A stretch of 64,000 nucleotides of DNA from Amycolatopsis mongoliensis (lineage in GTDB: Bacteria; Actinomycetota; Actinomycetes; Mycobacteriales; Pseudonocardiaceae), in NCBI RefSeq assembly GCF_030285665.1, contig NZ_CP127295.1, positions 3,968,001 to 4,032,000 on the forward strand. The letters run 5' to 3'. Within the stretch, counting starts at the first letter, position 1; every line of letters starts with the position of its first letter. Made by a program: the position numbers and the translations under genes. The notes under the pieces are model-generated. The model ran no database searches. It had not been told where the DNA came from and worked only from the letters and a program-made list of their open reading frames with translations. Of this stretch, positions 12,572 through 13,065 are shown one piece after another.

Positions 12572-12665
12572 GCCCGGTAGGTAGTCCGGGCGGTCCGCAA
12601 GGGCTCGTTGTCCCGCAAGGGAAACCGGTGGCGCCAGGCTGATCCGTCACGCCTGGAGGTTTCCC
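12572..12665 (+). promoter_or_regulatory. Structured 5' leader of the YjdF-family gene, candidate riboswitch
   Basis: Several helices can be drawn. The first is GCCCGG (12572-12577) with CCGGGC (12586-12591). Two CCGCAAGGG repeats lie at 12595 and 12613; the second can form a TCCC-GCAA-GGGA tetraloop hairpin (12611-12622). CCAGGC (12634-12639) pairs with GCCTGG (12651-12656), and an outer helix joins GGGAAACC (12619-12626) to GGTTTCCC (12658-12665). The last two helices cover the Shine-Dalgarno TGGAGG (12654-12659) directly before ATG 12667. GGG 12619-12621 cannot pair with both partners, which is the layout of a translational switch. Firmicute yjdF genes are known to carry a riboswitch that binds azaaromatic compounds. 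Membership of this RNA in that class is not shown. Confidence 0.55.
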
Positions 12666-12666
12666 G

Positions 12667-13065
12667 ATGAGCGGGGTGTTCACGCTGTACCACGACGGCC
12701 GGTTCTGGGTCGGCGTCTACGAAATCCACGAAGACGGCCTGGTCCGGGCCGCTCGGCACATCTTCGGCGCCGAGCCGAACAACGCCGAACTGGCGGCCTT
12801 CGCGGCCGGCCGCGACTTCGTGCGTCTCGCCGATCAAGCACGCGAAGCCCCGCCTGTTCCGGAGAGCGAGCGTCCTAAGCGGCCCGCGAAGCAAGCGAAG
12901 GCGCAAGAGGGCATCGGCACCGCGGCTCAGCGCGCGCTGAAGGAAGCGGTGGCCGAGCGCGTGGTCGAGAACAAGGCGGCCCGCAAACGCCGGGCGGCCG
13001 CCGAAGCGACTCGGCGGCGCGAGCTGGCGAGGGCGAAAGCCCGCGCCAAACACCGTGGTCGCTAG
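12667..13065 (+). CDS. yjdF: YjdF family protein
   Basis: The product has 132 residues. The first half matches the YjdF/DUF2992 pattern: SGVFTLYHDGRFWVGVYEI, then ARHIFGAEPNNAELAAF and FVRLADQA. The second half is a very basic, alanine-rich helix (KEAVAERVVENKAARKRR, RRRELARAKARAKHRGR), which could bind RNA or DNA. Function is unknown in all organisms. In Firmicutes the gene is controlled by an azaaromatic-binding riboswitch, and the leader here is also strongly structured. The Shine-Dalgarno TGGAGG sits inside a predicted helix. No partner gene is evident downstream. Confidence 0.8.
   Translation: MSGVFTLYHDGRFWVGVYEIHEDGLVRAARHIFGAEPNNAELAAFAAGRDFVRLADQAREAPPVPESERPKRPAKQAKAQEGIGTAAQRALKEAVAERVVENKAARKRRAAAEATRRRELARAKARAKHRGR

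Follow-up and report, generated by a model that had tools for sequence, protein, structure and literature searches.

Positions 12551 to 12665 of the window, as we call the whole 64,000-nucleotide stretch of Amycolatopsis mongoliensis DNA that was analyzed, probably (at a probability of about 0.78) constitute the leader of a yjdF gene and hold a diverged riboswitch of the azaaromatic class that acts as a translational ON switch. Sequence comparison indicates that this is a real, conserved, and diverged leader of that class. Related leaders stand before genes for flavin-dependent monooxygenases in related bacteria, a testable clue to what yjdF RNA senses. For the yjdF class, structures have been solved, ligands of nanomolar affinity are known, and an ON mechanism has been described, yet a natural ligand is lacking, as almost every member regulates the same gene, whose function is unknown. 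The recurrence of an enzyme partner with predictable chemistry makes the question of the natural ligand assayable, starting with the substrate of the monooxygenase and proceeding to the RNA, and the monooxygenase association is the part of this work most likely to advance the field.

The yjdF gene and its genomic context

The yjdF gene (DUF2992; 12667 to 13065, plus strand) encodes a protein of 132 amino acids that matched PF11208 with 114.2 bits, above the curated cutoff of 23.8, and is full-length, covering profile positions 1 to 132 of 132. This was the single PF11208 match at an E value of ≤0.001 in the 10.8-Mb genome. The gene is patchily distributed, occurring in 9 of 297 genomes of the family, 21 of 80 of the genus, and 18 of 396 of the phylum, with the genome of the window included each time. 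A structure model of YjdF (mean pLDDT, 78.5) had no fold match in the PDB at an E value of ≤0.001, a PDB sequence search with YjdF returned one match (E value, 0.39), and an NCBIfam scan gave no name for YjdF and none for a glyoxalase-like protein.

The gene lies between those for S-adenosylhomocysteine hydrolase (10398 to 11882) and thymidylate kinase (15962 to 16615). The same hydrolase-yjdF-kinase order, tightly spaced, was seen at locus L147, and a thymidylate kinase gene likewise follows yjdF at L146. An ORF of 347 amino acids on the minus strand (13321 to 14364), with no Pfam match at an E value of ≤0.001, adjoins yjdF, and an ORF on the plus strand (14567 to 15142) matches Peptidase_C70, the AvrRpt2-like cysteine protease family, and has an N terminus that looks signal-like by eye. 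Decay of yjdF was apparent at some loci: at L009/L126 the aptamer is reduced to its 5′ half and a deletion reaches into the gene, L036 retains a leader ahead of a yjdF remnant, and in L033 to L035 similarity to YjdF is confined to the later part of the protein.

Architecture of the leader

All parts of the leader lie on the plus strand. A −10-like box (TAACCT, 12536 to 12541) predicts a transcription start at about 12548 to 12550. It is followed by the yjdF-type aptamer with P1 to P4 and their junctions (12551 to 12637), as placed by the RF01764 match and by 22 aligned leaders; the aptamer lies 30 nt before the yjdF ATG, within the 5′ leader as in the RF01764 class. The 5′ strand of P1 (12552 to 12561) has its partner at 12628 to 12637, with a mismatch at 12557/12632 in the window. 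J1/2 (GAACCTCAC, 12562 to 12570) has C12566 and T12567 at the sites of A14 and A15 in known members. P2 (GCCCGG/CCGGGC, 12572 to 12591) carries the loop L2 (TAGGTAGT, 12578 to 12585). The P3 hairpin (12592 to 12605) is variable in sequence; all 5 of its 5 pairs vary, and 97.3% of their cells are paired. J3/4 (CGTTG, 12606 to 12610) has T12609 at the A97 site of known members, and P4 (TCCC/GGGA with a GCAA loop, 12611 to 12622) has invariant pairs and no CCTCC motif. The CC of J4/1 (12625 and 12626), invariant in 22 of 22 leaders, has G12580 and G12581 of L2 as its expected partners.

The CCAG of the P1 3′ strand is also used by an OFF hairpin, P5 (CCAGGC/GCCTGG, 12634 to 12656), which includes the start of the Shine-Dalgarno sequence (GGAGG, 12655 to 12659, as read from the sequence). 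Behind it, GGTTTCCC (12658 to 12665) is the OFF-state partner of GGGAAACC (12619 to 12626). A first-pass annotation had described these two helices, and the letters bear it out: CCAGGC at 12634 to 12639 pairs with GCCTGG at 12651 to 12656, GGGAAACC pairs with GGTTTCCC, and both helices enclose TGGAGG (12654 to 12659). As it also claimed, CCC (12612 to 12614) can pair with GGG (12619 to 12621) over GCAA, and CCGCAAGGG is present twice (12595 to 12603 and 12613 to 12621). Its nested helices are real, yet they are chiefly OFF-state pairings, and P1 and P2 were missed; the interval that it gave, 12572 to 12669, holds real helices but leaves the P1 5′ strand and J1/2 upstream.

Relation to the azaaromatic riboswitch

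No family attained its gathering score in an Rfam scan of the window. When the covariance model of RF01764, suggested as a check by the first-pass annotation, was run permissively on 12450 to 12750, it aligned end to end with 12550 to 12644 at 21.3 bits, against a cutoff of 45. Among 18 loci of relatives it was listed in just 7, at 24 to 31.3 bits, and Rfam therefore misses this group. RF01764 exceeded its cutoff in the 17 other yjdF genomes of the phylum sample, none of which belongs to the class of the window, and not in the genome of the window.

The leader resembles the azaaromatic riboswitch in its four-stem junction, in GGUAGU of L2, CAC of J1/2, G95-U96 of J3/4, and CC of J4/1, in its location before yjdF, and in its anti-Shine-Dalgarno logic. 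It differs in its score, in having C14, U15, and U97 where known members of RF01764 have A14, A15, and A97, and in the strand that takes the Shine-Dalgarno sequence: known members use P4 (CCUCC), whereas the window leader uses the P1 3′ strand and has no CCUCC in P4. Because the score, the pocket adenines, and the P4 motif fail, we do not count it as a formal member of RF01764. Even so, the end-to-end alignment, the same loop and junction contacts, and the same gene agree with a divergent actinobacterial member of the class, one of two options in the first-pass annotation, and speak against the other, a separate and unrelated switch. The novelty foreseen for either option proved only partly right because Actinobacteria are already in print as carriers of the yjdF riboswitch, being listed by Li et al. 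2016 (PMC4793209).

It is very improbable that a separate RNA class converged on the same gene or that the fold arose by chance. The weak Rfam score would fit such a reading, and so would the folding energy; the minimum-energy fold includes both long helices, and its energy is ordinary (z, −0.97; 35 of 200 shuffles were as stable or more), so that the case rests on comparison. A chance fold was rejected on the covariation described below. A separate class was rejected on the end-to-end RF01764 match and on the behavior of R1, a model built from the 22 actinomycete yjdF leaders only, which nevertheless recovered 7 of the 9 known-type loci offered (E values, 0.0003 to 0.051); gene and junction order are also the same.

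Covariation among leaders

We aligned 22 distinct full yjdF leaders after removing identical ones (L014, L020, L021, L028, L029, and L031). The decayed L009 and L036 were dropped from leader counts together with L033 to L035, in which a pattern search found no aptamer; the counts are also without L017 and L018 (Coriobacteriales records) and L057 to L075 (yjdF gene loci of the phylum sample). The yjdF leaders retrieved from Pseudonocardiaceae share the arrangement CTTGGCT..ACGAACCTCACGGCCCGGTNGGTAGTCCGGGCGG-P3-CTCGTTGTCCC-P4-GGGAAACC..GCCAGG..CCTGGAG.

Standard pairs occupied 95.8% of cells in the 22 leaders, compared to 91.6% in shuffled alignments and 23.7 to 52.0% when partners were slid by 1 to 3 columns. 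Cells altered on both sides numbered 26; shuffling gave 8.3, and none of 500 shuffles reached 26. Pairs altered on both sides numbered 6, versus 3.5 upon shuffling (8 of 500 as high). P1, P3, and one loop contact covary. For example, the P1 pair 12558/12631 appears as GC, UG, UA, or GU, and the loop contact 12569/12585 (the A17-U58 equivalent) is AU in 19 leaders, GC in 2, and GU in 1. The equivalents of A17-U58, C18-G57, G53-C118, and G54-C117 are standard pairs in all 22 leaders, with variation at A17-U58 only. P2, P4, and the remaining junction contacts are invariant and constitute evidence neither for nor against the structure, and two P1 mismatches count against it, 12557/12632 in 13 of 22 leaders and 12559/12630 in 8 of 22. 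The first-pass annotation had staked its proposal on covarying pairs in the leaders of relatives, and such pairs are present.

A larger set of 39 distinct leaders (23 of yjdF and 16 of monooxygenase type) had 16 of 25 pairs altered on both sides and 114 such cells, versus 36.6 in shuffles, and the monooxygenase type by itself likewise had 16 of 25; both of these alignments had been made to fit the structure and are biased in its favor.

Proposed switching and predicted transcription start

In all 23 yjdF leaders, the P1 3′ strand CCAG leads into a helix whose other strand is CCUGG, from the Shine-Dalgarno stretch; this helix usually ends in a CG pair, replaced by GC in L004 and by UA in both L008 and L111. 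A second pairing, of GGRAAACC (P4 plus J4/1) with GGUUUYCC behind the Shine-Dalgarno sequence, is found in 13 of 23 leaders, the window included, as counted by reading the rows (the P4 count of 17 given by the script takes in helices that run into P1). None of the P4 hairpins of 22 actinomycete yjdF leaders contains CCTCC. P4 of known members pairs with the ribosome-binding site (PMC4793209), and our script found this pairing in 25 of 28 known-type leaders, a count that is possibly one too low because the anchor was misplaced for L082. GAACCUC in J1/2 is a candidate extra anti-Shine-Dalgarno element, with a helix score of ≥12 in 21 of 23 leaders according to the script (in L008 by another stretch); ACCUC is able to pair with almost any Shine-Dalgarno sequence, and L004 and L024 lack it.

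These observations suggest a mechanism. Comparison supports that the RNA can form P1 to P4 with the L2-J1/2 and L2-J4/1 contacts of the class. The CCAG of the P1 3′ strand doubles as the 5′ strand of the hairpin that takes in the Shine-Dalgarno sequence, and in the window the 3′ strand of P4 can alternatively pair with the bases right behind it; with these strands in common, the aptamer and the sequestered state are mutually exclusive. We infer that stacking of a planar aromatic compound between the counterparts of U55 and A56 fixes P1, which would free the Shine-Dalgarno sequence, so that YjdF would be made when the compound is present. Published members of the class are ON switches (PMC4793209, PMC9142559, PMC10987639). 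The sequestered fold was computed to be the more stable in 22 of 22 leaders, by 0.5 to 13.1 kcal/mol, from energies that cover secondary structure alone and from an ON fold in which many positions were constrained to stay unpaired; the ON state would therefore need ligand or folding during transcription.

A structured leader might instead control translation through a protein or tRNA-like partner or through temperature. The class has been likened to tRNA (PMC9142559), and the OFF hairpin by itself could serve as a thermosensor, but we consider this improbable, as conservation falls on the bases lining the small-molecule pocket in the published structures (PMC10987639) and genes of an unrelated family have the aptamer in front of them as well.

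A TANNNT box within 26 nt before the aptamer was present in 19 of 23 yjdF leaders and in 1 of 23, 0 of 23, 0 of 22, and 0 of 22 control stretches. It is kept despite differing upstream sequence in L023, L024, and L027 and is missing from L004, L005, L008, and L026. Transcription probably starts just before P1, judging from this box, and a start downstream of 12619, an outcome that the first-pass annotation had named as fatal to its proposal, is unlikely because the box precedes the aptamer in so many leaders.

Pocket bases

In the Ruminococcus gauvreauii structures, A14-U55 forms the platform beneath the ligand, and A15 stacks at its side and contacts A97 (PMC10987639). All 23 actinomycete yjdF leaders carry C14, U15, and U97. 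In leaders of the known type, A14 is present in 28 of 28 and A15 and A97 in 27 of 28 each; this set (n = 28) consists of 20 loci of the RF01764 phylum scan and 8 further ones, with visual inspection used for L052, L056, and L081 to L083 and for the A97 site of L052 and L080. One of them, L052, is intermediate, with U15 plus CCGUAGCC in J3/4. Monooxygenase leaders have G14 in 17 of 17, and their base at position 15 (C, U, or A) depends on the subgroup. Position 14 is hence A in the known class, C in actinomycete yjdF leaders, and G in monooxygenase leaders. We found no report in the open-license literature of C14/U15/U97 pocket variants in actinomycete yjdF leaders.

How these changes bear on the ligand can be read in two ways. 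The ligands may be those of Firmicutes, the pocket changes being neutral or compensating, the range of azaaromatics equally broad, and the monooxygenases an extra detoxification output. This is quite possible, at a little under even odds: the known class is already promiscuous (PMC4793209, PMC9142559, PMC10987639), the equivalents of L2, G53-C118, G54-C117, C16-G95, and U96 are kept, and the known-type L052 has part of the pocket change, but all 23 yjdF leaders deviate at positions 14, 15, and 97, and the base at position 14 follows the gene group. More tentatively, and with the chances in our judgment against it, actinomycetes may have re-tuned the azaaromatic riboswitch so that the A, C, and G groups at position 14 each sense a different aromatic compound, in the monooxygenase group the substrate or product of the enzyme. 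If re-tuning is true, it would provide the first gene link from the orphan yjdF class to a definable reaction. The natural pocket variants indicate which bases to probe for specificity.

Leaders of monooxygenase genes

Run on 80 genomes of the genus, R1 found 27 places in 24 genomes, namely, 18 yjdF leaders and nine others (L102 to L110), each of which precedes an ORF that carries a GxGxxG motif at its N terminus. The aptamer was found at an E value of ≤0.001 in 18 of the 21 yjdF genomes of the genus; the other three match the later part of YjdF only. R2, a model for which 29 leaders of three kinds were the input, found 22 places in 19 of 278 genomes of the family: 8 yjdF leaders, the decayed L126, 10 leaders of monooxygenase genes, 8 of them new (L122 to L125, L127, and L131 to L133), and 3 in other sequence (L128 to L130). 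The same aptamer class therefore precedes FAD-dependent monooxygenase genes at 17 distinct loci in four genera of Pseudonocardiaceae. Class-wide, R2 had matches in 7 of 364 genomes, and only the genome of the window and L111, a yjdF leader of another family, were convincing; a third model, R3, gave weak matches only in one genome of another family (G373). Doubtful places (L112 to L116, L128 to L130, L155, and 11 weak R3 matches) were kept outside the gene counts.

In the genome of the window, R2 at an E value of ≤5 found three places: the window leader (85.5 bits), L154 (25.2 bits; E value, 0.0115), which lies 27 nt before a PF01494 gene, and L155, a match in apparently coding sequence. The 11 weak R3 matches, in five other genomes (E values, 0.066 to 3.6), include none before a monooxygenase gene, and for this reason L154 is probably real even though it is below threshold.

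Twelve proteins, from 11 of the 17 loci plus L154, all exceeded the PF01494 cutoff, and the monooxygenases are one subfamily, 35 to 97% identical with L154 included. Searches of NCBIfam (two proteins) and the PDB (one) placed HpxO, Tet(X), and AbsH3-type relatives far under naming cutoffs, and a tblastn search with a monooxygenase against plasmids returned 115 records, all under 60% identity. RF01764 scored 45.1 bits on L105, above its cutoff, 34.9 to 42.7 bits on L102 to L104, L106, L107, and L123, and 23.6 to 31.9 bits on L108, L110, L122, and L124; L109 and the five leaders of a long-loop subgroup were not among its matches.

The monooxygenase leaders (L102 to L110, L122 to L125, L127, L131 to L133, and the weaker L154) share with the window leader the same core and the competition between P1 and the Shine-Dalgarno sequence. 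They differ in their gene (PF01494), in G14, in the longer L2 of one subgroup, and in the absence of P4 from L132 and L133. A helix of the P1 3′ strand stretch with the Shine-Dalgarno sequence was present in 17 of 17 and overlapped P1 in 16, with the limit that shuffled Shine-Dalgarno stretches paired equally well in more than 5% of cases for 6 of the 17 leaders and in exactly 5% for one more. Of 18 monooxygenase leaders, L154 included, 17 have a −10 box ahead of them; control stretches had one in 0, 1, 0, and 0 of 18. L2 is enlarged in the long-loop subgroup (L125, L127, and L131 to L133; UAUGGGUUAGU). The P4-less aptamers of L132 and L133 are just 72 nt long (1501 to 1572 in each) and stand before monooxygenase genes. 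The yjdF RNA before the NAD operon of Streptococcus thermophilus (Weinberg et al. 2010; PMC2864571) is likewise P4-less and away from yjdF; its gene and phylum differ. The guanidine-IV variant Gd4v (PMC9788692) also combines a known fold with a changed pocket, changed genes, and an unknown ligand, as here, and, belonging to an unrelated riboswitch class, serves as a precedent only.

In related genera the same module, with different pocket bases, stands before FAD-dependent monooxygenase genes of one subfamily, so that the regulon would most simply be a response to toxic or self-made aromatics. According to the portion of Li et al. 2016 (PMC4793209) used here, the rare genes other than yjdF were unrelated and gave no clues; its main text uses none of the terms monooxygenase, hydroxylase, oxidoreductase, or FAD. 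We found no report of a link between the yjdF riboswitch and monooxygenases in the main texts of the open-license literature, and none on yjdF together with Amycolatopsis in open-license papers. The same source counted 413 of 1,826 YjdF genes as lacking a riboswitch, and our results suggest that some of these may carry a form that the model missed.

Other observations concern the surroundings of individual leaders. The long-loop leaders L131 to L133 closely follow a urocanase gene and its neighbors, the urocanase being confirmed for L143 and L145 and assigned by look for L144. An MFS transporter gene (L141, 3948 to 5447, plus strand) lies just upstream of the L125 riboswitch and monooxygenase on the same strand. 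At the yjdF locus L023, positions 707 to 835 of the minus strand matched the ALIL pseudoknot (RF01497) with 49.4 bits, against a cutoff of 50, near ORFs that we take to resemble transposase.
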